Of a DNA stretch of 64,000 bases, positions 7,602 to 62,400 are shown one piece after another. A program made the translations under genes and the position numbers. The notes beneath the pieces were generated by a model. That model ran no database searches. It saw only the letters and a program-made list of their open reading frames with translations, and was not told the origin of the DNA. Origin of the DNA: Phlebiopsis flavidoalba (lineage: Eukaryota > Basidiomycota > Agaricomycetes > Polyporales > Phanerochaetaceae); NCBI GenBank assembly GCA_035772785.1, contig JAOCPU010000024.1, positions 310,001 to 374,000 of the forward strand, written 5' to 3'. Each line of letters opens with the position of its first letter. Position 1 is the first letter of the stretch.

Positions 7602-8390
7602 ATGGCGCCGTCGTTCAACGCGCCGTCGGTGCAGCTCAAGAGGAGAGCCGCGGGGGTACATCTTCGTCTGAAGCGTAAATGTCTTGGCGGAGTCCTGACT
7701 TGCTGCCAGACGGGGACACGGCCCCCGTGTATATGCCCGGACGGGAAGCCAGGTCCGCTCATCGTTCCCCTCCCTCACTTTTTACTTTCTCGCGTGTTTC
7801 GTCACGCAAAACTGGCTTCATCTCTTCTGGTTGTCGGCATGGCTGTCCCTTCCTGGTTGTTGACATGGCTGAGCGTGCGGGTGGTTGGTTGATCACCACG
7901 GAACGGGCCAAGGGGGGCGGCGATGCGACCTGTGTGACCGGCGACCTCAACTTCAGCCTCAGTCTGGCTTCACTGTGGGGGCCGACGGCTTTCATACGGC
8001 TTTCGACTGTGCTGTGATGAACTGGGTGCACATGGTGGTGTTTGATGTGATTGCAGTACTCGCGAGTAGACTACGCCGTATGTTGGCTGGGGCAGATGTT
8101 CTCGAAGGCGGGTGACATATGTCATCCGGGCGCGGACCTTTACGTGGTCTTCGGGATAAGTAGCCCTCGACGCCGAAAGACGCGAGGGTGAAACCAACAC
8201 GCGCCGAATGTTGAGTTCCCCGTGCTGTAGTATGTAGACATGCTTGTGCTCGCTTCGTGAGCTCCATTGATTAAGGTCTGCGGGGAGCTATGCATTCGAG
8301 AGTGGGCGACCCACGGATATCTTCGTGGTGGATACTGGCGGGGACGGCGTGAGCAGATGAAGTATTTGGATATCGTTCCCATGACGCACC
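7602..8390 (+). CDS. Unrecognised candidate gene downstream of a TATA box
   Basis: I do not recognise this product. The ATG at 7602 (MAPSFNAPSVQLKRRAAGV) follows a TATA box and CT-rich leader at a sensible distance. Further down, plus-strand segments look protein-like but sit in different frames: ATCVTGDLNFSLS at about 7936, SGFTVGADGFHTAFDCAVMN at about 7963, YSRVDYAVCWLGQMF and AGDICHPGADLYVVFG at about 8060-8155, then ELCIREWATHGYLRGG and MKYLDIVPMTH up to about 8390. The protein would need introns and at least one frame correction. There is no signal peptide or transmembrane segment at the N-terminus. It could also be a relic. Confidence 0.3.
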
Positions 8391-8790
8391 TATAACTACT
8401 CGAAGTGTGGCTTTCCCTGCTATGCTCTCAACAGCCCAGTATCCCTCGTCCGCGCTGGCCTTGCAAGCTAGGGTGTTATGCTGCTAACGTGCTTCGGGAC
8501 GACGATGTCATGCAAAGACGGTGTGCTCTAGAGTTGCTGACCATCGCGTATGTCCTATCGAAGTGACGTGATGACCCGCAGCCATAGCTATCTTGAAGAC
8601 GATATGAATGCAGGCTAAGTGGTAGACGTAGCCTGGTGCCACATCGCGCAGACTATGCCCTTGGGACTGTGGCAATGTGAGTACTTCCTTCCCATGGTCT
8701 TGACTCGAAGGATCAGAGAGCTGACCTTGTTTCCTCGCGAGGCCCTACACAGCGTTCCGGGGAAGCCTATGTAAAGTGACTCCCTCGTGT

Positions 8791-8810
8791 AGGGTTAGGA
8801 AGGGTTAGGA
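8791..8810 (+). repeat. Short interstitial telomere-like direct repeat
   Basis: Two perfect tandem copies of AGGGTTAGGA, each holding the fungal/vertebrate-type telomere core GGGTTA. It is isolated, far from any window edge, and too short to be a functional telomere. Confidence 0.5.
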
Positions 8811-11270
8811 GTGCATGTACCAGAAGGAGTCGGTATGCAGGGGTTTGGCACTGGACGTTGTGAACGACGCCCCTCCGAGAGCCTAAATCGTGCCTGTCCC
8901 ACGGTACCACTCATGGTACGCATCAGATTGAAACTTCCTATAGCAGTAATCCGGATCAGATGCATCCCCTTGCCGTCCGCCATTCCTGCACCGAAGCCTC
9001 CCAAACACAGCATATGGGTTTGCTCCCTACCACTTGCATTGCCTCGTTTCTTTCGGTCGACCGAATACACAATGTATGGGCCCGGGGGCAAACAGTAGCT
9101 CAAAACAAACTCTTCCGCCTACCACTACCATCCTCCTCCCTGACCCCACTCCGCGGACTGCGGAACACGCCCGCTCTTGACTTGGACGCAGCACTCTTGA
9201 CTACGCACGACTCGCTTCCTCTTCTTTCAACCACCCACTCATCGCGTTACACTCGACGAAGAGAAGCATGTCTATCTCATACAAACTCCACACACGGTAC
9301 ATTGTAATCTCTCGACGCGTCGTACATGACTCTGACGCGCTTCTCCACTTAGGACGCGAACGTCCCCCCTCAGGCCACAACCACTACCCTCCCGCCTCCC
9401 CCGCCTCACCCCAACGCGGGGCATCCCGCACAATGCGCCTCGTATGAGGACCGTCCCCACTCCCTCCTGTTCCCCCCTGCCCCTACATGACCACGACACC
9501 GGTGCCGTCGTCACTGGCCCTCTGCGGGTGCGAGTCGATAGAGGGACGAATGGGCTCTAAGTGCGCAGTCCAGAGATCATTAACTCGAAGGTACGTTCAT
9601 AACATGTCATATGCGAGTGCTAAGCGACTAATGTGATATGTGACGAAAGGCTGAAAATGAAATCATTATGGACATTTGACGACGCGGGCCGCAGCTGGCT
9701 GCAGACCCTTTATGAAGCATATCCTGGACCTCTCACACACTCTGTGTTTCCCCCTCTCATAACCTCAACCCATGTTGTATCATAGTGAACACTGCGTTAT
9801 CTGTTTCTCGTTGTAACTTCCCTACAGGGTAGTTTCTTCGCCGTCCGTGTAACAGTATGGACTCCTTCGAATCTATAGCCATTTCAGCCGGAAACCCCTC
9901 CCCATTGACAAATGTCATACTTATGCATGCCAGCATCAAGCCTCCAGAACCTTCCTTCTTTATACAAGCACTTCTCATGGCTTTATGGTCCCCACAGGTG
10001 CGCCCAGTGTTGATAACCCGTACTGTCGCACCCGCCAGCAATACCGGGGCCATACTTCAGACAATGCGTGGGAACGTTAGTCCGATTACTCGGGCGTCTC
10101 CACATTCCGATCACATTGATGCGCCCCTCTCCGTGTGAAGAAGCGCCCCCCCCCCCCCCCCCCGCTCCCCATGCTTGACTTCAACCTTCACGAGCGTCGA
10201 GCTCAAATACCGCAGGTATACGGGTTCACAATACGCCCATGAAACCTTACACTTCATAAACGCTGTGCACAAAGCTTGTGTTTCTCCGTTTTGACCTGTG
10301 GGAGATCCCGCTGCTCTCGCGGGAATGAACGTCGATGTCCCCGCGGATTCCCATAGACTACGCTGGTGAGTGACCCGAGGTCGTCCGAAGGGTATTATCG
10401 AGAATTCTGACCGCTATAGAACTCAAAGGGTCTTGCATGTGATGATCATGGTCATCTAATCGTGACCTAGAGAAGTCCGCCTTTCTTGCTTCGCCGAAAC
10501 CGAACTGCTAGGTTATCATGATTCCCAACCTATCGTGGTTCCCATTGAAGGAGTCTCGCTGTGAGAGCCACAAGATCATTAGAAACCTACTATGAGAATT
10601 CTGATTGATAATATCAGGATATACTCTGCCCTCTTAGTCGTCTGACGGAAGCCGTCAAGTCCTGCGACAAAACCTCGGCAATAACGAGGATCACGAGCTT
10701 GAGACTGCTTTGTCTCTTCTGCAAGACCAAACGAGGATGTAGAAGGGCCCCTCAGCAGATCTAGGTACAAGGCACCTTGTTGGTGCTTGGTCGGCGGTCC
10801 TGTGCTTATATCTTGATATCACAGGTCCCGTACCCAAAAATCTTCCGAAGCTCGCCACGTCGGCCTCGCTTTACCTTCATCGCCTTGCGGATCAGGTTGA
10901 CCTGCTCCGCTGATGCGAAGACGCCCCTGCCAGATCTCGTACCTGTGCATAACCCTTTGCGATGCTACAGATCTTTCCAGTCTGTGTGAGTCCTACATAC
11001 TTGACGGGTATGTTGGGTTCATCATCCGCTATACGGCAGGCTGATGAACCACCATTGCGCACTCAGATATTCCATGTGCTCAAACGCATCCCGCAGTGCT
11101 GCATCTGTCAAAATCGCCGGCTTAATCGAGACGAGTTAAGGTTCGTTGTTTTTCAAACGCTGGGAAACCAATAGTTGACGCCATGTTTGCCCCGGTCCGA
11201 CAGCGCAACGAGCCAGTGATCTAGTCCTCCAAGCACACTTGACCCAGAATACAGGGTTCCCTGTCAGGAG
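8811..11270. other. Gene-poor stretch without a supported gene
   Basis: ORFs occur on both strands over the same bases (for example around 8800-9100 and 9760-10140), as expected by chance in GC-balanced DNA. None shows family motifs or plausible splicing partners. A C18 homopolymer lies at 10146-10163. Confidence 0.45.
10146..10163. repeat. C18 homopolymer
   Basis: Eighteen consecutive C in a gene-poor region, one of the longest mononucleotide runs in the window outside the G-rich tracts. Confidence 0.9.
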
Positions 11271-11787: not shown

Positions 11788-12384
11788 TGATACTCAAACA
11801 ATCTCATCTGTGTGGCCGCGAATATAGACCCTTCTCCGCATTCGGCGCTCGCCTCCTAACAGATACGTCAGCTGCGCAGAACGCCGCTCCATCCCGAGCG
11901 ACGATTGCACATCCATGATTACCAATCACTTCTCATTTCCGCTTGCGATAGATCGCTGTCCCACATCTGTGTACTTCATAATCTCAAAATCGGACTGTGT
12001 TAATCACTATCTTCTTCCCTTTACCCTCACTGCGTCTGTCCTGTACATACCTATCGGTTTCCCCTCCGTCGTCTTTATCTGGTTACACAGCATTCCCGTC
12101 CGTTTGGTAGAGTCGTGTACAATGACCTAGACAAAAATGGTTCTTCATCTCGTGATAGCGTATATTCGATCGATGCCTGATCACGCGCTAATCAAATGTG
12201 TCGCACGCAGACAGACGCCAAGTGTACGCGAATATGTGGTCCGAACTACTACACTTGCCAATTGTATGGATGTTGCAGTGGACGCTATATCGAGTACGTA
12301 CATGCGTTGGGGCGCCTCCAAATCATGACACATGCCATGGTATACATCCGTCAGCATGAGACGTCCACCATGGCGATATCCGCA

Positions 12385-12618
12385 GGGGGGGGGAGGGGGG
12401 CCAGTCTGTGGGGGTGGAGAAACAGTGGAGGGGACAGAGGGGGGGGGTGGGGGGGGGGGGGGTGGCAGGAGGGGGGGGCAGGGGGGGGGAGGCTGGGAGG
12501 GAGGGGGGGATTGGGGGGGCAGGGGGGATCGAGGGCGGGGGGCAGGCGGGGGGGGTGGGGGGGGGGGGGAAGGGCAGGGTGGCAGAGGAGAGAGGGGGGG
12601 TGCAGGGGGGGAGGGGAG
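12385..12618 (+). repeat. G-rich low-complexity tract (about 0.23 kb)
   Basis: The plus strand is almost only G, in runs of 4-13 broken by single A, T or C bases. It creates artificial Gly-rich and Pro-rich ORFs on the two strands. The flanks are ordinary sequence. It matches in style the much longer tract at 50.8-52.3 kb. Confidence 0.9.
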
Positions 12619-14861
12619 TTCAAGCAGTCGTTTGTGCATATTGCTCGGAGCCACTTACATATTTCTAAAAGCCCACTGTGCATAGACCTGGTCATCAAAC
12701 CGTCGCCGAGTTAACGCAGCCCAATGTCCTCCGAGTCGTAGGGCTCCGTTCGCCCGGGTCGAGGCACTTACTACGACGATCTTAGGTAATCGATGCTCGG
12801 AATCGTCCGTCAGGATATCCAAACCCAACCCATTGCTTGTGAAACCAGCTTCATCTTCTCTTCTTCGCTTTTGACACTCTACGACTCTTGCGATAGGGGG
12901 AATACTCTGGGCTACCCGATGGTGAAGCAACCTGCGTCTCTCACGCTCGGCGGCACACATCATGATAAGGATACTCTGGGTCTACTAGCTGGTGAAGCAT
13001 AGCCCGTCGTCCTTAGATTTGCAAGAGACGTTTAACGGTACATTACGGTGACCAATCATGTGCGTACTCCAGGTCCGCGAAGGTATGAAACGCCAAATAA
13101 CGAACATGTACCGAAGGACTGGAATGTTGCCGGTGATCGAAACACCTGCGCCAGAAGTCCCTGAATGGCATGTTCAGCAGAGCCACTCAGTCACGTGCAA
13201 GAAGGTCTCACCATAGGCGCAATGAGCCCTCGGCTGGATGATACTCACCCTATAGCTTTCATCGAGAATCTCTGTCGGTGCTTCTGACACGCCGGTAATC
13301 CTAAACAACGTCAGAGGCCTTGGCGAAACTTCTTGAAGAACGAGGGGATTCGAGGAGGGACGACTTCATCTTCAGGTCATATTCACACCTGGGGGTGCTG
13401 ACGTGCGGGACGGGACAGGTACGAGGTGGGAGGTGGGAGCGTTGGAGGAAGGCTCCGCTGGAGAAGCTCCGATGCCTCTGGCCGTAACGCTTCAAAACCT
13501 TGCAGCACTGAGAGTAGATCTTCCGGTAGAGCTAGTGTCTGCGCCTCATCTCTGGTAAATATGACATTAGCCAGTGTATTGATTTCATTTGTGGATGTAC
13601 TCACCAGGAGTTTCCCGCGCCAAATCGCAGTCATATCGTAGAATAGCATCAGGTTTGGACGCCCGATAGAAGCTTGAGTGTACCAGTATAATGCCAGCGA
13701 GATGGCAAACGGCTTTTGCCAAAAACCATCCTCTGTTATCCACGATACTTCCTCAGTTGCTATAGACCATACTTATTCAACAGTTTTCGGAACCAGACCT
13801 CGGGCCTTCCTCCACACTTGTTAGGATCGTGAGAACTCTCGTGGCCGAATCGTATTCAGTTCTCATCGTTTCGTGGCGTTCCGTCAGCCCAAGTTGACAG
13901 CCGGAGGTGCCGTTATTGCGGTTGTGCGGCGGCCGCCTTGCGAGACGTATGCTACGTCGTGGGGAAATCCTCTCATCTGCACGGGGCTTCACCGGCCGAT
14001 CTTGAAAGTGCATTCTACAGTCGTAGAAAAGAAGGCGGACGTGCAGATTGGACAACAAATTTCACATGTCCGATTGCAATCACCGGTTTGTTATTTTATC
14101 GGCCGATATTGTCAAGTCTAGAACAGCAAATCGAGTTTTGTAACATGGGTGTTGCGGAGCTATGGGTGGGCGCATTTTCAGATCGGAAAGTGTTTAGCGC
14201 TTCCAACGAAGTACATCACATTTATAACCATTATCACCATTGGAAATTTGCTACCATCCACCAGCACGATAGCCAGTATGAGAAAGGCTCACTCTGTCAT
14301 AGCACTGCATCTGAAGAGGTTTATGCAAGGGTATAGCAGTCGCATGCGTGTGATGCAGAATACGAGAGCGCTTAGTGAAGGACTTTTCATAAGATGTATG
14401 CCTGTTCATTGCCAAGTAGAGGCGCACAAGCTTCGTGGGAACGATTCGGGCTGTCAAAGATGCTGTAGACTGAACAGAATGTATACACATTCGGCAACTT
14501 CGGTCAGGATTCACGCAGGGCGCGCGTGAGTTTCACCCCATCGTTTCCCCGAATATCGGGCTTCAGCAGCCTTGACTCGTCGTCTAGCAACGTTGCCGTG
14601 ACCACGAGAAAGCCTTCGACAAAATCCATCACGTCATGGATTATCTGCCATTCGGGTTTGGTTTGTGATGAGCGGGACGAGAAGGAAGCCCATTGGGGGT
14701 ATACCAGCAGCGGCAGAGCGGCGCCGACCTACTGGACCTGATCCGGGGTTTCAGCGTTTCGCGGTCATGGAGCGCAGAAGAGAGCCGTATAGCTGCAGCG
14801 CGGATCGCACGGGTTTTAATGCTAAACCTGGGGGGAGACGGCCAGGGTAGATATAGTCTCC
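12619..14861. other. No firm gene; possible minus-strand coding relic near 13.4-13.75 kb
   Basis: On the minus strand around 13400-13745, GWFLAKAVCHLAGIILVHSS and NLMLFYDMTAIWRGKL look protein-like and lie in two frames, but I cannot assign a family or build a gene. A degenerate repeat (ATACTCTGGG then GGTGAAGCA) occurs at 12902-12929 and again at 12970-12999. The rest shows nothing I can support. Confidence 0.35.
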
Positions 14862-18537: not shown

Positions 18538-20760
18538 TCAGGAATACACGATTAAGGTCTCTTTAGCGAACTTCACTTTCTTGAACATGCTGTCCATCCG
18601 GGCCTTTGTGTCAGCATCTATCCTTATCACAGCTTTCTTGGCTATCTCGTAGGCCAAACCTTCCTGTCAATTCTACGCTTACCACGGACCTCTCCCCACA
18701 ATCCAGTATTTAAACTGGTCGACGTCCCGGCGAGAGCATAGCCGCTGTTCCCCACGAGCCCCTCCACCCCCCTGTCCACGCGGAGCACAAGGAATTCCGC
18801 TACGTCAAACCGGAACCATTTTCCCGTTCTGGAAGCTTGACCTCTTGACTCGGCCCTCGAGCTCATTCTCGCAGTAGTCGCCAACCAGTACTCTCTGGCT
18901 CGTCGTCAGACTCGGACCCTCGGAGGATGAGCTTGGTGGCTTGGTCCTCTTCCTCGGAGTCGTCCGGTCTCGTCGCCCTCATCGCATTCATCGCACTCGT
19001 CGTCCGCTCCCGGATCCCCCCTCGGTGTCAGAACTTCGATCCGAACCACTGTTCATGCGGGCGATGGTGAAACGACTGGTCCTATACGAAGTGATCTCAC
19101 AACACTTGCGAATGAGGAAGCCAGTGTGGTAATAGGCTTCGGAGTAGTCGAAGTGGTGGCCCGCGTCAGGGGCGTATCGCAGAAGCTCGTCCTTGTGAAA
19201 AGTGATGTCGACTGCCATGCTAGGGAGCCTTTTACACTTCATGAGTGCATTCCAGGAGGGACGCCACTCCTCAAGCCCATCTCCTTCGCTTGGCCAACCG
19301 AAAAGCATCTCGGAGCGGTGACGGCGATCAATGTGCTGGACAAGAGCATCCCAAGCGTCCTCGGGGTCAAGGCCGGGATCGTAGATCGGCAGAGTCTTGC
19401 AGCGGAGGAGATACGCCAGACCCCAGATCTGGTCCACAGGTTCGGAGTACTTGCGAGTGCGAATGGCGTTGATGAGGTCGAAGACGTTCCCCTCTGCCAA
19501 GCTTACAACGTCGTACAGCCGTTCGTAGAACTTGGGGCCGATCACCTTGTGCTGGCCATCGCTCTTGAAAGGTATTCATCGTCAAGCCTCCGGGAAGCCA
19601 GCAGGGTGCACACTCCTGCAGTGTCCATACACGTTGCAGCCAGTGGAAGTCGGACGTGAACGTGTCGTGGGTAACAGAGAAAGGGAGTCCGAGGCCGTTG
19701 AAATAGGTGATTATCGTCTGCTGTGCGTTGTGTTGGTAGATGTGGCCGATGGTAGGCACATCCAAACGCCATTCCTTCTTGAGCTGGTAGTCCTTGTCTG
19801 ACCATTTCCCGTCCTTCTGTCTGAGGCATACGACGTCGAGGAACACGTACTCGGCGCCCAGATTCAGGAGCTCAATACGAATGTTGTGGATATCGGTGCC
19901 CCTTGGGAATAGGGACCCTGCCACATTTTGTCGTTGATCCTGGTGGTTACCAGTTTGCGATCCTTTTTGGGCACCCAACTGTGCGAGACCGCCCAGACAT
20001 TCTCAGGTATGTGGTTGGGCGTCTCCAAAGGTAAGGCATGGTAGGGGATGACGCGATTGCTGTAGAGGTCCCAGACGCGTCGTGGGGGGGATTTGGGGAT
20101 GAATGATGCTATCGCCATCCATGGCCCTCTTCCGCATCTTCCTATCCTCCTTCTTCCGCTCCTCTATGAGCCGCGGAACCTCTTCGAAGTCATAATCCCA
20201 GTAAGGGCGCAGGTGCGCATAGGCCTGTCCAAAATCGCAAGACTCGTCAAGGAACTCCTGCAGGCAGTTTCGAAGTCCGGGTTTCGTGGCGAACGTGTAA
20301 CGAGTCCCGAGCACTTCGTTCAACTTCTCGAGTAGGTGGTCAATGCCGAAACGTTCGCAGGGGGACGATCGCAAAGTCTAGCACGGATAGCGAGCTGGCC
20401 ACGATGAAATCTCTCTGGAAGGGGATCATGGCCTCGGAGCTCTTCTGGAGGGTATATACTTTGGCTTTGTCATCCTCGCTGGTAAAGTCAAAGAGCTTCT
20501 CCGGTCGAATAGAGTTACGCGCCAGGATGGCGACGGTCCTCCAGACATTGGTGCGTCTGAGTTCTGCTCGTCCCTTCCAATCGACCTCCTCTCCTCCTCG
20601 CTTGCGACGCGTCGGAACTACGGGCCCTAGTCTCCATCGCAAAACTTCTCGTAGTCCTTGAATCCCCGCCAATGGATCGACGAGATCCTCGTATCGTAAA
20701 AAACCTATCGAACAGGTCTCCGATGTCTAATGAGCTCCGTCTAGAAGTTCTTCTAGACAT
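18538..20760 (-). CDS. HET-domain protein A (heterokaryon-incompatibility-like)
   Basis: HET domains mediate non-self recognition and cell death in many filamentous fungi; the role of the basidiomycete versions is largely untested. The start ATG (20760) gives MSRRTSRRSSLDIGDLFDRF. A conserved N-terminal region follows (KVYTLQKSSEAMIPFQRDF, AYAHLRPYWDYDFEEVPRLI). The HET core is at about 20030-19640: VWAVSHSWV, IRIELLNLGAEYVFLDVVCL, RLDVPTIGHIYQ, ITYFNGLGLPFSV and FHWLQRVWTLQEC. After it come FDLINAIRTRKYSEPVDQIW, GLAYLLR and EEWRPSWNALM, an acidic Ser-rich linker, and a C-terminal domain (RFDVAEFLVLRVDRGVEGL, SGYALAGTSTSLKYWIVG) ending in FKKVKFAKETLIVYS with a stop at 18538. At least four frame breaks occur, at about 20640, 20340, 19920 and 18880. 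It lies in tandem with HET gene B. Confidence 0.8.
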
Positions 20761-21891: not shown

Positions 21892-23733
21892 TCACGCGAA
21901 AGACATGCGCACCACTGATAACTTATGGAACTTGAGCACCGCGTGGTTCATCATCCAGACCCCTCTCTACACCGTCAGCCACGCCCAGTGTCCAGTACTC
22001 AAACCCTCCACCTCCAACCAAGGAGAAATGCAGCTCGGGGATGAGCTCTTCGTGACGCGCGAAAATATCAAAGGTGTATACTTTATCTTTTCGTTCGATA
22101 ACGAGCTTTCCTTGCCGTTTTTGCCTGTGATCCGTAGGCAAAGATGAGAGGCCTTGTATCACACAGTCCCTGAGCGTAGGGACCGTTGTACAAGTAGATA
22201 CCGTTGCCGACCTCGGGTGGAAGGTCTTTCAAGCTGTTGTAGACAACGCGCTCGGCGACCTCTGCTCCTGTCCACTTTTGGGTCACTTTTGGAAGCTCCG
22301 TCTGTAGAATTTTGCTTCCATGATGGTCTCCATTCACTTGTACGATCTCCTCGAGAGGGATAGAGAAACAACATGTCTCCCCGGAATCGTTCGTCCATGT
22401 TCTCTATGAGACGTGTCCAAGCATCCTCTACGTCTTCCTTCTCTTTTGTAGATAGGCAGAGTCGGCGACTGCAAGATGTAGCCAAGCCCGGCCACTTTGT
22501 CTACTGGGTTCACGGAGTCACGATTTCGCATAGCATCGACAACGAGGAGAATGTTGGACGGCCGGTCCGTGAAAAGAGAGACGAGATGATCGAGTAGCTC
22601 ATAAAAGCTATCTCCAGGGGTATTTCCATAATCCTCTGGCGCCGTGGGAGATCCGTCCGTCATGCCATCCGACGATCCAATTCGCCTTTGTCTCCTGCAG
22701 CGTCCACGCAACGGTTCAGCCAATGACGAGGATCTTTCAGAAATCCCGTCTCGACGCTGAATGGACGCCCTAGTCCACTGAAATAGCAAACGATTTTGCG
22801 ATCTCGGCCTGCATGATAAACGCGTCCAATCGTGGGTACGTCGAGCTTCCACTCGTCCACACGCAGGTGCTCCTCCACGCCTCCATACTGCCTCAGACAA
22901 AGAACGTCTAGCCAGACATACTGTGCCCCCATGTTCAGCAGTTCGATGCGAACGCGTTCGAGACTAGCGTCGGTGGGAATGGGGACTGGCCACTTACGGC
23001 CGTTGATGTTGGTCAAAATATCTCGACGCTTGTCCAACGACATCCAGCTGTGCGATACTGCCCAGAGGTCGGGCATTGTCAAATGCGAGTTCATGATCCA
23101 GTGAGGAACGATACGGTTGCTCCCATAAATCCCAGACACGCCGCGGGAGGTAGAAAAGAGTTTACGATCGTATCCCCCGTAGGGCGCTGGAAACGTAACT
23201 GCTCGTCCTTGATGCGAGCCTCCTCTATGACTTGATCAAGGAGCACCACAGTATCCCATCGTGGGCGAAAGTGAGTATATGCAAGCCCTATATCGAACGA
23301 ATCTTCAATTGCACGTTGAATGTGCGGTCGGAGAAAGGGCGTATCGAGGGTATAACTAGTGCGGAAGATACGATTGAGGACACTGAGAGTGCCATTGAAG
23401 GCCCAGTTGGACGCATGAGAGGTTGGCGTCATTATCCAAAAGGATATGGATGCCGGGTGGTGCTCGTAAAGCAAGATTGTTGAGGGACAGTAGTTTTTTT
23501 CGCCCGAAGGTAAGAGTGGAGAAGAATCGGAGAACGCACGGGGGAAAAAGTCCAGACCCGATCTGGCCCAGCCTCCGCAGGCGCATTGGCAGATGACACG
23601 CCGCATGCACGTATATCTCGGGGGTTTGCCGTTACATGATCGTCTTCTGCCGCAAGTTTAGCTTTGCGCTGCGCAAGAAGACGATTTTCGCTCCTCCTCA
23701 TAAGGGTCTGGCGAAGGGGGGAGAGTTAACCAT
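21892..23733 (-). CDS. HET-domain protein B
   Basis: Same architecture as HET A and closer in wording to HET C. The ATG at 23733 reads MVNSPPFARPL, then shifts frame to SENRLLAQRKAKLAAEDD. The conserved N-terminal block has GTLSVLNRIFRTSYTLDTPF, LRPHIQRAIEDSFDIGLAYT and HFRPRWDTVV. The HET core lies at about 23060-22720: DLWAVSHSWMSLDKRRDIL, NINGRKWPVPIPTDASLERV, RIELLNMGAQYVWLDVLCLR, EEHLRVDEWKLDVPTIGRVY and CYFSGLGRPFSVE. Then come YELLDHLVSLFTDRPSNILL, DKVAGLGYILQSPTLPIY and, at the C-terminus, YTFDIFARHEELIPE, GFEYWTLG and LKFHKLSVVRM, with a stop at 21892. Frame breaks sit near 23600, 22690, 22480 and 22000. A functional copy would need all of these to be consensus errors. Confidence 0.8.
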
Positions 23734-35300: not shown

Positions 35301-37241
35301 CATGTCCTCCGCAAACGCAATGCCCGCCGAAGAGCGTCCTGAGCCAACGGAGGGTACCCAAGTTTCTACTCTCGCTGTTCCCCTGGATCTCCCAAGCTTC
35401 AGCCAGATCCGGAAGAGGCTCGCAGACGGCTCATTGCCGAGCACAAAGCCAAAGTGCGAGCTAACAGGGCTGCAAAAGCTGCGAACACGCCTCCTGGCGC
35501 GGCGCCCGCTCGCCCTGTCGTGGCTGAGGACACAAATCCAATCCCTGTTACCCTCACAGCACCATCATCCGAAACGATTATAGTCCCGAAGCAACTCAAA
35601 TACGAAAGTGCGAAGCTGATTCGCATCATCACCGACGAGGGACGCCGCCGTTCCTGTGTCGAGCTCGGGCTGGAGGGCACCCTAAGTGTTCTCAATCGCA
35701 TCTTCCGCACAAGCTACACTATCGACACCCCATTCCTTCTCCCTCACATCCAACGCGCCGTTGATGAAGGCTATGACATTGGGTTCGCATATGCCTACTT
35801 TCGGCCTCGATGGTATTATCTCGAAGAACTTGGCCCCATGCTCGAGCGAGTGCGACAAAAGGGACGAAGAGTTGCGCGCGAATGTCCTGCGCGACGATAA
35901 AATCGTGAACCCGCTCATACAGCCGCGCCGCGTGTGGGATCTATGGAGCAATCGCGTCGTCCCGTACTGGGTGATGGATGCTCCACTTGGTGCCGCAGCA
36001 GCTGTGGTCTGTGTCGCACAGCTGGATGCCGCTCGAAAAACGTCAGGACAATCCTCACGAACATCAACGGGCGCAAGTGGCCTGTGCCGAGTGCCCACGG
36101 ACTCCACGCTCGAGCGCCGTATTAGTGCGCATCGTGAATTGCTCAATCTGGGCGCCGAGTACATGTGGGCTCCGAGACGTCCCTCTGCCTGCGACAGTAC
36201 GGCGGGTGTGGAGGAGCATTTGCGTGACGGAAGAGTGGAAGGTCGACGTGCCCACTATTGGGCGCGTGATACCACGCCGATCGCAACCAGAGGAACGTTG
36301 AACGTTTGTGTGCTACTTCAGTGGTCTTGGACGGCCGTTACGGTCGAGCAGGGCTTCATGAGCGAACCCAGACACTGGTTTCAATCGGGCGTGGACTCTT
36401 CAGGAAACGAACGCACACGAGGGATAACTGGGGGTATCACGGCGGGCTCGCCCGTTAGAGGGGGACACCGGAGACTATGGTTGACAGCTGATGCCGACAA
36501 ATTCTTTGCTTTCCTCAGTCGCCTCGTCGGGCTGCTAGCGGAGCGCCCTACGAACGTTTTCCCATTATTGCTGGCCATGCATGAAACGCGACTCCGTGAA
36601 CCCCGTCCGGACAAAGTTGCAGGCCTTGCCTACATTCTTCAGTCGTCGTCCGTGCCTGTTTACAACAAAGAGAAGAAGGAAGAAGTCGAGGGACGCGTGG
36701 GGGTCGTCTCGTCGAGAACATGCACGAGCGGTATCCCGGAGACATGTTCTTCTTGTACCCCACACGGGGCGACGGCGCAAGCGGAATGGAGGCCATCCTG
36801 GAGACAGATCACGCAGGAAGAGCTGCCAGCAGTTTCCGGCGTCGAGGTCTCTGTGCCAGTGTTGTACGACTTCATTTGAGAGTGTACCTCTCTCCCGGGA
36901 CTATGGCCACGTCCTTCCAGTACATACGGCAACACTCTGAACGATTGCCTCGTGAAGGGACTATCGCAGCCACCAGTAGGGAACCACAGCACGGCGAGGC
37001 GAAATTGTGATAGAGCGCTCCAGCGGGAATGTGACTTTTTCGGTTTTTGCGACACACCAGCGGAACTCATCCCAGCCACACGAAGAGCGCTTCTATCTGA
37101 TAGGTGGTGGATACGAATATTTGGGTATTGGGTAAAGCCGACGATGTCTATGATATGGCGTTCAGGTTCCATAAAGTCTCAGTGTTGCGTATGGACGAAG
37201 AAGAGCGGGAAAGATTAAGACGATCGAAACTGTGCCATTAG
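35301..37241 (+). CDS. HET-domain protein C
   Basis: Third member of the family, on the opposite strand to A and B. The ATG at 35301 reads MSSANAMPAEERPEPTEGTQ, then ARRRLIAEHKAKVRANRAAK. The conserved N-terminal block is nearly the same as in B: GTLSVLNRIFRTSYTIDTPF, LLPHIQRAVDEGYDIGFAYA and YFRPRW. The HET core at about 35930-36320 has RRVWDLWSNRVVPYWVMDAP, LWSVSHSWMPLEKRQDN, LLNLGAEYMW, GGVEEHL and EEWKVDVPTIGRV. Then come FFAFLSRLVGLLAERPTNVF, DKVAGLAYILQSSSVPVYNK and AEWRPSWRQI. The C-terminus is clear at 37130-37241: GKADDVYDMAFRFHKVSVLR and DEEERERLRRSKLCH, then a stop. At least six frame breaks, notably around 35880, 36030, 36120-36290, 36380 and 36700. Probably a recent paralogue of B. 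Confidence 0.8.
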
Positions 37242-44716: not shown

Positions 44717-47651
44717 ATGTCGAGCAGGCTAGACGCGAACTATATGCCAGGTGAGCGGTCTACGATGACCGACTCAGACTTGGACGCCTATGCCACTCCA
44801 CGACCGCCGCCTCGCCATTCATGCACCCCGCGCCGCTTGGTGATGTACCGACGCACATGCCTTCTGCATACTCTCTAGCAACCTCAACTCCTCGCGAATC
44901 AGGTTACAACGCCTACCCAAACTACGGAGAAGCCGCAGGGACACCGAACAATAACTCTGCGCCGTTGCTGCCGCATGATGGCACGGCCGAGAATTACAAC
45001 AAGGAGGCCGCGGGTCTCTATGGGGGTGCAGCTACGCGCGACGCCCGTTCTACAAGAAGCCATGGTTCTATGTCCTTTTTGGCAGCGGCTGCCGTGGTCA
45101 TTGCGCTTGCCATCGCTTTGCCGGTCAGTCTCGTCAACAAGAACCATAAAGGCACTTCTTCCGCGTCTACCTCTGGCAGCACGAGCTCGGGAGGCGGAGA
45201 TTCTGGACACAATGGAACCAGCGGCGGAAACACCGGAGGAGGTGGCAAGGGCACTACCCTCGCAACAATGGGCGGCGACGGCAGTACTGTCACTAAGGAG
45301 GATGGAACGACTTTCGTGTATCACAACTCATTCGGCGGCTTCTGTAAGTCATTCTGTTGGTCTCGCATCTTTGCAATGTATCATTAAACGCATAAACAAA
45401 GGGGTATCTGATCCTGCAAATCCGTTCAACAACAGTGCGAAGCCCAACAGCTGGACACCGGCCCATCGGCGAGAAATGGACTTGGGGGTTGACCATATTT
45501 ACGGGTGCGTACATTTCTGCAGACCCGCGCAAGCTATCTTACCCATCTATGCGGTTGTGCAGTGTCAATTTAGGTGGCCTGTTCGTTCTCGAGCCATTTA
45601 TTGTACCAGCGATGTTCCAGCCATATCCCGATGCGGTCGACGAATGGACGTTGTCACAAGCGATTGTCGCCTCGTACGTTTCTAATTCGGTGCATATATG
45701 CAGACTACTAACTCATCACTTACTTCACAGAGGCAAGAACTTGACGGAAGTCATGATCGAGCACTACGAGAGCTTCGTACAAGAGGAAGACATTGCCCAG
45801 ATCGCTGGGGCTGGGCTTAATTTCGTCCGCCTGCCAATTCCCTTCTGGGCTATCGAGACTTGGAGTGACGTCGGTGTCGACGCCGGTTCGACTTCCCCCG
45901 TTTGCCGAGCCCTTCTTGGCCAAGGTCTGCTGGCAGTATATCCTTCGCATTCTGTCTTGGTGCCGCAAATACGGTATTCGCGTCAATCTGGACCTACATG
46001 CCGTTCCTGGTTCTCAGAATGGTTAGTTGGAGAACATTGTACAGTGTTTTGCTGGTGCTCATACGTCACTCTTAACAGGCTACAACCACTCGGGCAAGTT
46101 TGGCCAGGTCAACTGGATGAACGGTATCATGGGATATGCCAATGCACAACGGACCACTCGATTACATTCGTACCATCACCGAGTTTATCTCCCAGGCCGA
46201 CTACATCGACCTTATTCCGGTCTTCAGCATTGTCAATGAAGCTCTCATCAGCACCATTGGCAAGGAGCCGATTACCAGCTTGTAAGTCATACCTCGTCCG
46301 ACCGGTTTAATTGTGTTTCATAACTTGGCCGCAGCTACCTTCAAGCTCACAACATGATTCGCTCCGTCACTGGTCTCGGCGAGGGTCACGGTCCGTTCAT
46401 CGCCATCCACGACGGCTTCGAAGGTCTTGGATCTTGGGCGAACTTCCTTCAGGGCTCGGATCGGATACTCATAGGTAAGCACCGGCTGACACTGCCTCCG
46501 CTGTCCCCCAATTAATGACATGTGACCTCTGCAGACACTCACCCCTACTTCGCATTTGATGGGTCTGCAAACGCTGGACCCCATCGACGTACAGCTGCAG
46601 GGAAGCACGGACCCTACGCAGTTCGGTGGCCGTGGCCTGCACAGGCGTGCAATGCGTGTGGGGCGCGAACATGAACCAAAGGTGCGTTAGCCCCTATTTC
46701 AACACGCATAGCGGGGACCGTTGCTGACGGTGGACATGTACAGCCGAGAGGCCTTTGGAGTCACGATTGCGGGCGAGTTCAGTAACGGCATTAACGACTG
46801 CGGTCTGTACGTCCGTGGTGTGGGGAACGGTCCCCAATACAAGGGTGACTGCACGGTGTTCAACAACGCCGGCAACTGGACGGATCAGATGAAGAATGCG
46901 CTTCCTCAACTTCCAGTTGGCAAGCATGGACGCCCTTCAGGATTGGTTCTTCTGGGACGTGGAAGGTCAGTATCTCCGCGTCCGTGACAGGAGGCTACAA
47001 ATGCTGAAGTCTTGTGTCTACAGATCGGAAATGACTCAGTGACAGGCACAGTCCAAGCTCCACTCTGGTCTTACCAACTCGGCCTCGAGGGCGGCTGGAT
47101 CCCGACCGACCCCCGCAAGGCCCTCGGCACCTGCGCCGCCATCGGCGTCGACACGCCTCAATTCAGCGGCTCCTTCCAGCCCTACCAGACCGGCGGCGCA
47201 GGCGCAGGCACCATCGTCGCATCTTCGACGTCCAAGTTCGGCACGTTCCCGCCGACGAGCCTCGCAGGCGTCCCCGTCGGCCAGGTCACACTCATCCCCT
47301 CGTACACCGCGACGCGCGGCCCACTCACGCTTCCTCCGCCGAGTTTCACCGCGAGCGCGACTGTCAGCACACCCAACGGCTGGTTCGACGCATCGGACTC
47401 TGCCTCGTACGTCACCGCGGTCGGCGGCTGTGCGTACCCCGACGCATACAACCAGCAAAGTAGCCCTGTCCCTGCTACCGCGTGTGTGGCGCGACTGCCT
47501 CGCTTGGTGGCGCCGCGGCCCCCGTGACGTCCGCAGCATCGGATGTTGGTGCGCCTGTGCCAACCAGCACTAGCAACACGGTCGTGCCTACAGCCCCGTC
47601 GCAACGAGTGCACCAGTGGCTCCTACAACGGGTCCCGCGACTAACGGCTAG
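44717..47651 (+). CDS. Membrane-anchored GH5 exo-beta-1,3-glucanase
   Basis: It trims beta-1,3-glucan in the cell wall. The ATG at 44717 starts a cytosolic N-terminus of about 110 residues (MSSRLDANYMPGERSTMTDS ... NSAPLLPHDGTAENYNKEAA), then one helix (SFLAAAAVVIALAIALPVSL) and a Ser/Gly/Thr-rich linker. The GH5 domain follows over about seven introns: FVYHNSFGGF, VNLGGLFVLEPFIVPAMFQP, IAQIAGAGLNFVRLPIPFWA, YGIRVNLDLHAVPGSQNG, NHSGKFGQVNWMNGIMGYAN, FSIVNEAL (acid/base Glu, about 46235), DTHPYFAF and FGVTIAGEFSNGINDCG (nucleophile Glu, about 46780), then QAPLWSYQLGLEGGWIPTDP and a Ser/Thr/Ala-rich tail. The stop is 47651 or, in another frame, 47700. Frame breaks occur near 44817, 45470, 45895, 46150 and 46925. 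The topology matches fungal ExgD-type type II enzymes. Confidence 0.9.
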
Positions 47652-48123
47652 CGCTGCGTCTACTACGAGTGCGCCGGTTGTGCCTCCGGTCAGGAGCTGA
47701 GAAATGACACAGACATGAATGTCCATGACAAGCGAAAACTGGTTCAGGTCTATTGGCTTATTCCTCATGGACTCTTTTGGCCTCTCTCGGACACTAACGG
47801 CTGCACTCATTTGGCACAAAAGCACTCATTTGTTTCATTTTGCGTATCTTATCCACTCCAAGATATCTGCTCTATTTTCCTTCATACTAGTTCGATGCAC
47901 GTACCTCAGTGACGTACAATTGGCACGATACCAGAACCATGCTGCCCCATGGACTACTTCCTTTTCGTTTGCACTGTTGGGATTTACTGGCCCATCTTTT
48001 CCATTTCTTATCAGTATCTATGTTGTACATGCTATAATGTGTACACATAATTAATCGGTATCTATCCTGGCGAGCACAACCATGTGAGTACCGTCGAAAG
48101 TAGAAAGTGAGTCTGCACCAGGA

Positions 48124-49990: not shown

Positions 49991-52900
49991 TTAAGGAGTC
50001 GCTCGGCCCGGGCCATTCTGTCGTTGGGGTTGCGTGTACATGTGATTTGGAGACTAGAAAATCGAACACATTGACGATATACCTTGGTCTTGCAATATAG
50101 GCATTCACGAACAGTGAATGCTGTTAGCGAGCCAACGCAAGGAAATCGCTGGCAAGACATTTCAATAATTGCACCTCAATAGTGGAGTGGGTGTGCGCTC
50201 ACCTCAACTTACCGAGACCGTAACCGCCGGCTCGCAAGTTCCGTACTCTTGCGCTGGTCCGTGAACCAGTAGTAGGGCGAGTGCAATACCCTCCTTCTTT
50301 ACGCCCGCGAGAAGCTCGTCCTTGTCCGTCAATCGCGCTATTGACCCCCACTATTATCACACGCTAAGTTAGCGATAGCAATACCCTTTGTTGGAAGCCT
50401 AAACTACTTACCACAATCTCATCAGCCTAACACGCGTGCATTCGAGCAAACTCGCAGCACTCGGTGAAGACGATGTGTCGCCATGAGCTTCGCATCCTTG
50501 GGTTCACTACGGCTTCATGTAAGTAGAAGCTCTTGAGCTGCCGCGGGTACGCCGTACAAGAACATGGGGACGCCCAGTGGCTTCCGTCATGCGGCTCTCC
50601 GCAGCTTTCAGCAATGGTCATCGCCGACCGACGTGGTCAACCATTTTCGGTTACCCGCCTCATCCTTGATCACGCAATGCATCCGCATCCCTCGGCCTCG
50701 TGCTGAATCCGTGATGTTCGTTCAGCCTGGCGATCGCGTCGACGTAGAGGACATTCGCAGGAAGGGGGCGCGCGGGCGGGGTGAAGTTCGGGTTCAGCTG
50801 CTGTATGAGGGCTCTGGCGCTTTGTTGGGTTGCCAGTGGAGGTGAACAGGGGGCGGGAGCCAGGGGTGGCCCGAGGGGTTGGGGTGTAGGGCAGAGGGGG
50901 GGTAATATAAGCGGGAACAGGGGAGAGGGAGGGGCGTTGAAGTTGGAGCGGGGGTCATCGGGCAAAAAAAAAAAGGGTGCAGGAGGGGGGGGCGACGTAA
51001 ACAAAACTGTCATGAGTCAAAAACCAGAGCGCGTAAAGGGTGGAGGGTTTGGTTTCGCGGGTTTGGCAAGGGGTAGAGGGTAGGGGCGGGTGGTGGGGAG
51101 GGCGGGGGGTGTAAAGAGGGAGGGGTGGGAGGAGGCGCCTCATGGGCAGGTAAAAAGAGGAGGTACGGGAGGGTAGTAGGAGGATGGTGGGTAAAATCGA
51201 GATGGGGGGGAGCAGGGGGGGGTAAGGGGGGGGACGTTGTAACCATGGGGGAGCAGGGAGGAAAGGGGGGGGGAGGTGGGGGGAGGGGGGGTGGTGGGGG
51301 GGGGGGGGGGGGAGGGGAGGGGCGGGGTTAAAGGACATCCCATGGGGGAGAGGGATAAATCAAGGCGGTAAGTCAGGGGGGGGGGTAGGGTAGGGGTGGT
51401 GTTGTTGTGTGTAGTGGGCAGGAGGGGGAGGGAGGGGGGAGGGGGGAGGGAGGGGGCACGAGGGGTTAAAAGTAAAAGGGGGGGTCGGTAAAGAGGTGGG
51501 GGTGAGGTATGTGGGTGGGGGGGGGCGAAGGTTGGGGTTGTGGGGCAGGTGGAGGAGAGGGGGTAAGGGGTAGAAGTGTTGTGCTGGAGGGGGGTGCGGG
51601 GCGGGCTTGGAGTGTGGTAAACGGTGTGGGGGGTCAGGGGGGGGGGAAGGGGGGGGAGTGGTGGGGGGCGGCGTTGTGGTTAAAAAAGAGGGGGGGGGTT
51701 GTGTAGGTTAAACTGTGAAGTGAGGGCAGGGGGGTGGAGGGGGTAGGGGGTATGGTGGGGGGGGGAGGGGGAGGGAGAGGGGGGGGGTAGGGATTTGGAG
51801 GTGGAGTACGGGGTGAGGGGGGGGGTGGTGGGGGAGGGGTAAGGGGTAAGCGGGTAGTATGGGGGGGGAAGTGTATGGGGGGGTGGTGAGGGGGAAGGGG
51901 GGGGGGAGGGGGTGAGGTGGGGGGAGGTGGTGGGGGTGGCTAGGGGGGAAGGCAGATGTGTGGAGTCGGGGAGGTGGGTGCAGGCGGGGTGGGGGGGGGG
52001 GTTTGTAGGGGGGGGGGGTTGAGGGTGGAGGGGGGGGGGGTGAGGGGGCGGGGAGGTGGTGGGAAGGGGGGGGGAGGAGAGGGGGGGGGGGGTGGGGGGG
52101 GTAGTAGGGCCAGGGAGGGGTAAAGTCAGCGGAGACCGGTGGGGGGGGGGGTGGGGGAGGGGGCACAGCAGTGCGGTAAAGGGGGGGTGCAAGGTGTGGG
52201 GGGGGTGGTGGGGGTGAGGCAGGAGCGGCGGCAGGGCAGGGTAGGGGGGGGGAGGGAGGTGCAGGCAGAGGGGGCGATGGTTGGGGAGGGGGGGGTGGAG
52301 GTGGGGGTGGGTCAGGGGGCGAGGGTATCGTCCGTGTCAAACAGTTTCACAGATTCTATGTCAAGAGTGAATGAACTTTCTAGTGTGCCGTGGGCGGAAC
52401 TATGTCGTACTTACGACTAGCCTCCAGGTGGACCATGAGGTCGTGTAAAGTCGATGAAGGCCAGCTCGCCCTACCAAATGTGTGTATTCACTCAGATGCC
52501 CGGCGAGTGTGCTTTAGCTGGAAAAGGCTCAGACCAGCGCACCATCGCGTGGAATATTAGCTGGCGCATAACCTGTTCTCCCGCACTGGAAGAGCTCTCC
52601 TGAACACGAACACATCGCCGAGAGATGGAAGACACGTCTCAAGATAGCAGCTGCGAGCTCTGCGTCAGGTATGCATCCTGGCCACATAAAGTAGTTAAGC
52701 TTGAACAGGGTAGCGCCACCCTCGACTTGTGTTTGTACACAAGGCACGGAGGATTGACCTCCATGAGTCGTGTGATACGAGTGTCTCGCGGGAAGAGGTC
52801 ATGGGGAGGGCGGCACGAAGTTTGAGTACGGCCGAGGCGGTTTCTCCTCGGGGACGCAGGACGAGGTGACGCAGATCCGCCATGATAGATGGATCCGATT

Positions 52901-53752
52901 TCTGGCAGAAATGAGCAAATTAAAGTTTCCTCAAAGGGCTTAGAGACGTACTTTTCGTTCAATCTGTTGGTGAATATGCCTCGTCTCCGCCGGGTGCGGC
53001 TCCCAAGACTTTCCAGTAATCGACGACAAGCTCGTGTGTCCCCCCCTGGTGCAGTCTTGCCTTCCGGGCAACACGCTTGCAGTGTTCCGACTAGCAAAAC
53101 GGTAGATTCCAGCGTGAGAGTGAGAGCATCATATGTTTGCGCCTGAGGAGACGAGGATGCTTTTGCGTCAATTATTTCAGACATCTAATAATGTAACTCA
53201 CCACTTTGCCCGAAAGGACACATTGGAGGTATCCCGTACCCTCACGCAAAACAATAAAGATAATGTCTTTTTGGCTTCGCAGACGGTGTACCCATCCAGA
53301 TACTGCGACGCGCTCGCCGCGCAGAGAGTCCCAAGTGCCCAATCTTCGACTATTTCCCTACATTAGCACAAAACCCCTCTCTGGAATATACAACAACGCA
53401 CCTTTTTCGCCTTGGGCAACGCAGGATCCTCCTCAAGTACGATCTTCTTGCTCTCTTCGAGCAAGCCGTTCGCGCCGCTCTCAGCTCATCGCTGCGCTCG
53501 CGGGCCTCACGTGCGGCAAGCTCCTCCGCTTTCTTGCGCTTTTTCTCAAGTCCGTCTGCGCCTTTAACGCGCCTTCTCAGTGCACTCTGTGTCGGCTCGT
53601 CGTACGCCGCACTGGCGTCCTTGCGCGCGAGCAGCTTTGCATCTGGATGAGTGAAGAGCGCGAAGGCGAGAGTTTTTGGTAGGGCGCAGTGGGTGTACAC
53701 CGTTGCCAGTCTCGTCGGAGCCCGTGGTTTCGTCGATGTGAATGCTCGACAT
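49991..53752 (-). CDS. Cytosolic asparaginyl-tRNA synthetase, interrupted by a G-rich tract
   Basis: Class IIb synthetase that charges tRNA-Asn. The ATG at 53752 gives MSSIHIDETTGSDETGNG, followed by TLAFALFTHPDAKLLARKDA, a coiled-coil-like EKKRKKAEELAAREARER and ESKKIVLEEDPALPKAKK (the usual eukaryotic N-terminal extension). The anticodon-binding OB domain has GWVHRLRSQKDIIFIVLREG, TGYLQCVLSG and HELVVDYWKVLGAAPGGDEA. The catalytic core begins ADLRHLVLRGE, VQTQVEGGATLFKLNYF, DAYLTQSSQL and ELAFIDFTDLMVHLEA (52420). After the G-rich tract it resumes: LIQQLNPNFTPPARP (50800), YVDAIARLNEH, MFLYGVPA, ARLTDKDELLAGVKKEGIAL-like sequence (50340), then YGTCE and GYGLG, FTVREC and finally PGRATP with a TAA at 49991. 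About ten frame breaks. Order and motifs make the identity certain. Confidence 0.9.
50845..52330 (+). repeat. 1.5-kb G-rich low-complexity tract inside the AsnRS gene
   Basis: The plus strand is overwhelmingly G (runs up to about 14), broken by single A, T or C; the AsnRS coding strand is therefore nearly all C. It sits between the AsnRS segments ending near FDTDDTL (52330) and starting LIQQLNPNF (50805), which in other AsnRS proteins are only about 10-20 residues apart. No tandem unit is visible and no canonical donor is obvious at its 5' (coding-strand) edge. It produces artefactual Pro-rich and Gly-rich ORFs. It could be an expanded intron, or a consensus artefact over a hard-to-sequence locus. 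Confidence 0.95.
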
Positions 53753-59452: not shown

Positions 59453-62400
59453 CTATAGTTTTTGCGAGTTTGCTGCTTTCCACTCGACTTTATGTACGTC
59501 CGGCTTTGGCACCTTGTCACGAGGATCCAGCCGCGCATTAAGCTCGTGAACTCCCTCATGCGCTGCGCCCAACCAACCCTCCATGCTCTCCAAACCGGCG
59601 TCGAGAAAAGGATCCGACTGTGCCGTTGATGGAGGACCACCGTCCGCTGGCTGTGGGTGAGGGTGTCTTTGTCCAGATCTCGTCGATAGCAGATTGCAAT
59701 TCTGTCTCGAACCCGGCAACCTCGGCCTGCAACGATAAGCCCCCTCGTCTCGGTGTTCAGGTGTAGGGAATTGGAATAGATGCGGTAGGAGATGTGTGGC
59801 ATCGGCTGAGAGGGCGCTCTGTCAGATCACGCCAGGGCATTCAAAGGAATCATACATACCTTTCGCAGGTATCCCATCGGCCAATAAGCTTCGTAAGAGA
59901 GCGTAGCAAAATATTCTTCCCTCTCGAGTCGACTGTGCCCTTTCTTCCCGAGCCAACTTTTCGCTCCATTTTTCGCTTTGATCGGGAAGACCGTCTTTAC
60001 ATAGGTTAGAAAAAAGGTCCAAGAGTGAGTAGTGCGGACTTACTTCGATGATTTTGACATGGCGGAGGGGAGCGATAGTGTATCGCGTAAAGGCGCCCAA
60101 TATATACCCCTAGTCGGGGCCATAGAGACGTCCGGTCATGATCATCAACGTTATGGAGGTCAACGTTGTCGTCCTGAGTCCCATAAAATGCCTCTGGAGC
60201 TCAGGTTAGTACCATACAGCCCTAAACCACAAACTCGCGCCCGTACCCCCTGGCTCCTCAGCCTTCTTAATCCGTAGCTCCCTAATCCGTGACAGTTGCT
60301 TGCGAAGCTGCTCGCGCATTTCACTCAGCTCTTCAGCAATTTGCGCACGAGTTTCTAAAGCGCCGGGGTATACGATCTCTTCGAGGAGATCCTTACCGCC
60401 AATGAGTGCGACCTACAACAAATGTGAAGCCACGTTCACCATTGTGGACAAGGGTCAAACGAACCACTTCTCCTTGCTTCAGAGAAGCAGTTGCCTGTAC
60501 GAGCGCAATGACGGCCTCACGCACGTCTTGGGAATAGTCCAGCAAGACACGCGATGCATCCAGATACCGCTTCTTCGCACTGAGGTCCTCTTTGAAATAC
60601 ATTAGGTTCTTTTCCACAAAAAGGATGGAATGCAGCTGACCGGCCACGCGATACGCCAGGGCTTTGAGATCCTCTGACTGTAAGTTCTGCTGTATCGCAA
60701 TCTCGAAAAGGTCCTGCCACATCAGTGCTTTCTCATACGCCAGCATTGCTTTCGGCAGTTTCGACGCTTGTCGGAAGACTGAGTGTGGTTCAGAGTTTTG
60801 ATCAGCTTACGATCGAGGGGATTACGGACCAAATGCCGCTTCCGGGAACTCTCGACGCTCGTAGAGATAATCTCCATACACGCTCAGGATGGTCTGGGGG
60901 AGAACTTTGTGACAGATCTTTGTGTGAAAGAATGGGGAAACCTACGTCGTATCTGTCAGTGCCTTTCCAAATATCCAGAGCGGCGTCATAGGAGAGGCGG
61001 TGCTTTTCAGTATATTCCACGGCTTCTTCAAATCTTTCTGACCCTTTAAAAATGTCAGATGGTCGACGCGACGCGCATGACGGTTACCAACCTGCCAGGC
61101 TGAGATTACGCAAAGCCGTCTCGTGGGCGTTTGAGATGGTCGTCGATTTTAAATCTCTGGTAATACTTGTCAAGTGCCCGGAGCTCGCGAAGGCAAGGGA
61201 AGATATTCTCTTGGGTCCTGACATGTAAACCGGTCTCAGCAGGGAGGGAATCGCACATGCCGGGTTGGAGAGATATCGGCTTTCACATTTTGGGCATGTT
61301 GTGCGATCATCAAGAACCAAGGAGAAGTCGTACATCCCGAGAGCTGTGTCGTGAACAAACTATTCGCCATCGACAAGGAAGATGATATACTTGACTGCAT
61401 CCTCGACCAAATCGGGTTTCCGCCCTCTGTGAGACAAAACAGTATTGGTCAAAGTCGTGCGAGACAGAGGTGAGTGTGACATACCCTCTTAGCTGAAGAA
61501 GTTGTGCGAGGCCGGCTTCGTGATCCGACGGACGTTTCATGACATGAGCGGTCAATATCGAGTTGATATAAGTGCTCCATGCCCTTCTTCTCCAACTCCT
61601 GGCGGACTCCATCGCAGACATCGATTCACAACTTCATCTACGAGGGTGCCTTGGCTGGGGCGGAATGAATAATCGGGCCGACTGGCGACAGCCGTACGAC
61701 GTACCCAAGACTTGTGAGGAAGAGGTTCACGAAGTCTACATCTTTCACTTGCTCGACGAAGATGGGGATATTCTTCATGAACGCCTCGCAGTTGTGGTCT
61801 ACGAGCACATTCAAGTCAACACGATGCCTTCGGCAAGCAGAGAACGCCTTCGCATAGTCAACACTTGGGTATCACTTTAGTCCACTGAAGCATCTGTGTC
61901 TTGTCAAAGGCGTACCTATCGATGTCTTGCTTGACGATCTCCATGACCAACGGCCGCGGGTTAATCGTCTCGAGATTACCTCTCGGCATCTGCAACACAA
62001 GACTCATCGTGCTGGGCACCGGCAGTCACGATCCGTGGAGCCGCGCTCCACACTCTTCGGGTCTCCCACTTCGGCTCCTCCTTGGTGTCCTGCTTCAGCA
62101 AGTCCGCGAGGGCCGCAAGTCGTGCAAACTGAGCGACGTGTGCGGTGGTGGTGTATACGAGGAACCCGGATGCGACAGTGAAAAGAGTTGGCATTTGATG
62201 TCAACAGGCGAGATGACCCTTCGTTGTCTGCGATGTGTAGTTTTTGCCCGCTAGGGTGAGACCAACGAACAGGGATGAGGTGGGTAAGGCAATGTGCTCT
62301 GTGGTTGGGCAGAACTCTGAGAATGAGGTGACGGGTTCAAAAGACTCTGTCTCGACGTTCACTAATATCCAATGTTAGAGCGTTTTGAACACGCTATGGG

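Follow-up and report, generated by a model that had tools for sequence, protein, structure and literature searches.

In the parts of the literature on which we draw here, raw PacBio reads are described as carrying about 8% insertions, 3% deletions and 1–2% substitutions, and raw Nanopore reads about 4% of each of these error types (PMC7671305). Insertions have likewise been reported, again in the part consulted, as the commonest error in PacBio subreads but the least common one in Nanopore reads (PMC5553090), and long-read errors as clustering in low-quality 'junk' segments (PMC6833143). As to homopolymers, the sections of the first of these studies used here give all four homopolymer 6-mers as inflated in PacBio data, with T-rich 6-mers dominating and poly-G in fifth place (PMC7671305).

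The locus compared here with these error profiles lies in a window, i.e. the whole stretch of 64,000 nucleotides analysed, that comprises bases 310,001–374,000 of a contig of 489,662 nt (C24) in an assembly of 36,283,335 nt and 129 contigs. In this window, a G-rich tract interrupts the only gene for a cytosolic asparaginyl-tRNA synthetase (AsnRS) found in the 36.28-Mb assembly. Our data argue strongly that this tract is absent from the DNA of the organism and stems from a single long read that was of low quality here, in a patch that was probably poorly covered and not effectively polished.

A G-rich tract within the AsnRS gene

The features that matter for the argument are, by their positions in the window:

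50,845–52,330, + strand: G-rich tract, read here as a base-calling artefact from its composition and from the breakpoints obtained with six homologs
52,317–53,752, − strand: N-terminal part of AsnRS (residues 1–371 of the homolog P0001), rich in indels, with 5 introns in the alignment at penalty −6
49,994–50,831, − strand: C-terminal part of AsnRS (P0001 residues 370–572), with 3 introns in the alignment at penalty −6
44,717–47,688, + strand: GH5 glucan 1,3-beta-glucosidase gene, a gauge of indel load a few kb away
12,371–12,638, + strand: second G tract, shorter but broadly similar (67% G, with runs of up to 14), which a search with the main tract brought up

The main tract (1,486 nt) consists of 919 G (61.8%), 271 A (18.2%), 199 T (13.4%) and 97 C (6.5%), and contains 129 runs of at least three G, the longest with 17. 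This G content is far beyond chance: the maximum over any other 1,486 nt of the window is a G fraction of 0.335 (mean 0.262, s.d. 0.023). Non-overlapping quadruplex motifs number 22 in the tract versus 8 on the + strand and 5 on the − strand across the remaining window. The 1.5-kb tract of G-runs pointed out in the initial annotation is thus present in the assembled sequence where it had been placed, but 'near-pure' is too strong a term for it, since 38% of its letters are not G and an ordinary-looking, G-poor islet of about 45 nt lies at 50,993–51,037. Along the sequence, the G fraction rises gradually from approximately 50,750, peaks near 52,050 and falls abruptly at approximately 52,330. 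The tract has no stable repeat unit, showing just weak overlapping rows with many periods, and does not qualify as a clean tandem repeat or minisatellite. The lengths of its G-runs approximate a geometric distribution, except that runs of 8–12 are overrepresented (23 seen versus about 10 expected), and the mutual information between neighbours, small as it is at 0.042 bits, lies above the 0.005 bits of shuffled sequences, which argues against purely independent noise.

Neither Rfam at its gathering threshold nor ARAGORN gave a match in the window. Other features seen in it are three regions that encode similar protein fragments and look like paralogs of a single family, at 18,988–20,377 (−), 22,334–23,657 (−) and 35,343–36,940 (+), two of which gave no match in a Pfam scan; a match to the TPR domain of the Elongator subunit ELP1 (PF23878, 1.5e-10) at 60,393–60,806 (−); and a DUF3533 match (E 8e-8) at 6,483–6,980 (+). 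Outside the window, another locus (L039) has at its positions 8,148–9,632 (−) an open frame of 495 residues, which by eye resembles a retroelement protease/reverse transcriptase.

The closest AsnRS among the listed protein matches is that of Phlebiopsis gigantea (P0001, 572 residues), which would place the source of the DNA among basidiomycetes close to this genus. It was aligned to the − strand by a frameshift- and intron-aware method, with frameshift penalties of −6 and −9 and with introns required to be GT/GC–AG and 40–120 nt long. At penalty −6 all 572 of the 572 residues align over both sides of the tract, and at penalty −9 the N side ends at residue 363. As had been proposed, the two halves of the gene flank the tract in the correct order and on the same (−) strand, the N-terminal half running from 53,752 to 52,317 and the C-terminal half from 50,831 to 49,994. 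In a query pieced together from them, Pfam recognized AsnRS_N and the OB fold above cut-off and tRNA-synt_2 below it (19.9 versus 25 bits).

The junction between the flanks was scored against six homologs (P0001, P0003, P0005, P0006, P0008 and P0017; six of 120 listed). With the junction left free, the best solutions remove 1,491–1,497 nt, with breakpoints at 50,821–50,846 and 52,314–52,342, and breakpoints that differ by as much as about 28 nt score almost equally. Allowing residues to be skipped at no cost improved the score by at most 6 points, at 3–5 residues. Thus, about 1.49 kb has been added within the AsnRS coding sequence with a loss of 0 to about 5 residues, i.e. the residues at the two edges, initially taken to be normally 10–20 apart, are adjacent in the homologs to within about 0–5 residues. 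This also speaks against the suggestion that the tract marks a collapse, as the assembly has gained sequence here and lost hardly any.

These junctions also bear on the main variant of the artefact. The assembler may have overlapped the noisy ends of two reads, with the tract representing the low-quality tail of one of them; we consider such a mis-join a real but distinctly less probable possibility, and as it is itself another form of artefact, most of the evidence is common to both. The gradual climb and abrupt stop of the G fraction would fit a read tail, and the nearly equal breakpoints could conceal a short duplicated overlap. However, AsnRS continues in order and on the same strand with little or no loss of residues, for which an insertion internal to one read is the simpler account.

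Splice junctions, indel load and the integrity of the gene

The initial annotation had also raised the possibility of a real, expanded intron capable of forming quadruplexes. With its 22 motifs the tract could indeed form many of these structures, and if such DNA is hard to sequence, a genuine G-rich intron or expansion removed from the RNA might be surrounded by local errors, in line with indels being densest near the tract. For all six homologs, however, GT–AG junctions rank only 225–228 among the 240 pairs of donor and acceptor dinucleotides, and GC–AG junctions are mid-field at 88–153 of 240, i.e. no GT–AG boundaries restore the conserved protein, although noise in the flanks could hide splice signals or have wiped them out. 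The approximately 1.49 kb to be removed also contrasts with the 50–76 nt of each of the eight other AsnRS introns (in an alignment that allowed 40–120 nt), a stable repeat unit as a basis for expansion is missing, and kindred tracts occur at scattered loci in either orientation. Taken together with an insertion-rich indel load of the gene that would be incompatible with life, these findings make a spliced intron very unlikely.

This indel load is best seen in the alignment to P. gigantea, which contains 63 insertion-type events, 11 of them insertions of whole codons that could be real differences, versus 10 deletion-type events. Per 57 residues, there are 1–5 insertion events over residues 1–285 and 7–16 over residues 286–570, i.e. 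indels are denser in the half of AsnRS that adjoins the tract and lies beyond it. Nevertheless, in-frame codons are well conserved, with identity to P0001 in 301 of 345 on the N side and 145 of 168 on the C side, or 446 of 513 in total (about 87%; penalty −6), and once the frames are followed, there is no in-frame stop codon at penalty −6 and a single one at −9. Conserved codons together with dozens of frame-breaking insertions point to the error profile of raw long reads rather than to a decaying pseudogene. The read artefact offered as a fallback in the initial annotation is therefore the part of it that holds, with insertions dominating in the flanks as they do in low-quality raw segments of the PacBio type, with high codon identity, and with sequence added at almost no cost in residues. 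A bias towards G is not seen in this neighbouring noise: C makes up 21.5 of the 71 bases inserted in AsnRS (− strand) compared with 28.4% of the aligned codons, so the insertions show no excess of G on the + strand.

By the same method (penalty −9), the N side of AsnRS has 18 frame-changing events in 363 residues and the C side 21 in 203 (39 in 566 together), the GH5 gene has 22 in 718, and a mitochondrial-type AsnRS gene on another contig (C37) has 3 in 480. The homologs used for the two AsnRS genes are equally close, with about 87% of in-frame codons identical. The C-terminal part of AsnRS is the noisiest part measured, and the error load is local, being neither due to the method nor common to all genes. 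From these counts it follows that the quality of the assembly is patchy and, among the places measured, worst beside the tract; in patches, the 36-Mb assembly seems little better than raw reads. The CCT/Cpn60 family as a genome-wide gauge yielded 19 matches at 7 contig loci, with stops inside 9 of the 19, a weak indicator since read-through introns give stops as well.

Searches of the assembly with the P0001 protein and with the DNA on either side of the tract revealed no second cytosolic AsnRS copy. The idea of a haplotig or second copy was dropped, as the other P0001 matches (2 of 9) represent the mitochondrial-type gene on C37. A search with the PF00152 family gave 7 matches on contigs C37, C39, C26, C2 and C7, and missed the interrupted gene on C24 altogether. 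Because an essential enzyme could hardly be so broken in a living fungus, the breaks presumably lie in the data. It is extremely improbable that a real 1.5-kb quadruplex-prone insertion resides in this only cytosolic AsnRS gene, being removed by non-canonical splicing or present in some nuclei only, with its structure causing the local errors. A decaying AsnRS pseudogene with inserted G-rich DNA seems just as remote, since its many broken frames would be expected to come with nonsense codons and decay by substitution, whereas the codons are conserved and almost free of stops, insertions far outnumber deletions and no other cytosolic AsnRS was found in the assembly.

Similar tracts elsewhere in the assembly

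The tract has relatives. A DNA search with it returned 22 matches, i.e. the tract itself, the shorter one in the window and 20 rows at no fewer than 16 loci on 16 other contigs, with 10 of these loci in + and 6 in − orientation; as only the best candidates were scored, 16 is a lower bound. Twenty 10-kb regions were examined, comprising the 16 loci and 4 homopolymer-rich places. Defined by windows of 55% G, the tracts at the 16 loci span 140–939 nt, and the one in AsnRS is the longest seen among the tracts examined. Base composition was measured in 15 tracts (13 of the 16 loci and the two in the window), and in 12 of them C is the rarest base besides G, though the window has 26.8% C over its first 48 kb. 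Most of the remaining tracts show neighbour structure clearly above that of shuffled sequences, and mostly more of it than the AsnRS tract.

Some of these other tracts have GC-rich surroundings and might in part be natural. A bacterial origin of such GC-rich loci (e.g. L025, L038 and L041) was considered, but was not suggested by the open frames when inspected by eye. Around six other tracts, six-frame translations inspected by eye revealed no recognizable gene split by a tract, and it is for AsnRS only that a tract within a gene is shown. A separate observation, made afterwards, concerns contig C1: of 21 distinct places with homopolymer G among the first 100 matches listed, 9 lie in a region of 109 kb (779,597–888,293).

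A probable long-read artefact and its likeness to known systems

How could a long-read artefact of this kind come about? In one long read, probably of the PacBio continuous-long-read type, the signal would have stalled, and noise would have been called as mostly G over about 1.49 kb while the template hardly advanced, before the read resumed along the AsnRS template. If this patch is supported by a single read or very few, consensus and polishing would fail to remove the tract. The AsnRS exon itself would then run uninterrupted through the ICETVDKLLANPTTA region. The platform, the low coverage and the calling of noise during a stall are all features that we infer. A specific preference for G in this process is at odds with the lack of G bias in the AsnRS insertions and with the modest rank of poly-G in the inflation reported in the part of the PacBio study used here (PMC7671305), and our literature search for kilobase-long G-run artefacts found no direct description of one.

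Overall, the AsnRS tract very probably is no feature of the living genome, but something ordinary that should be masked. It matters solely as a warning to users of this assembly, which contains G tracts at further loci as well: before this genome is cited for quadruplex islands, for expanded introns or for essential genes that are broken or missing, the reads should be consulted.

In comparison with known systems, the gene resembles a fungal cytosolic AsnRS (AsnRS_N, OB fold and tRNA-synt_2) in that the whole 572-residue P. gigantea protein is covered, but differs in having its frame broken in this assembly by indels and by the tract. With the spliceosomal introns of basidiomycetes the tract shares its location within a gene, whereas it has no fitting GT–AG junction and is about 20–30 times longer than the other introns of AsnRS. 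Although the parts of the studies on PacBio reads considered here describe no 1.5-kb segment consisting mainly of G, and the inflation published there is strongest for T, the tract and its surroundings have in common with PacBio raw reads and their 'junk' segments the dominance of insertions, the inflation of homopolymers and the local clustering of errors (PMC7671305, PMC6833143, PMC5553090).
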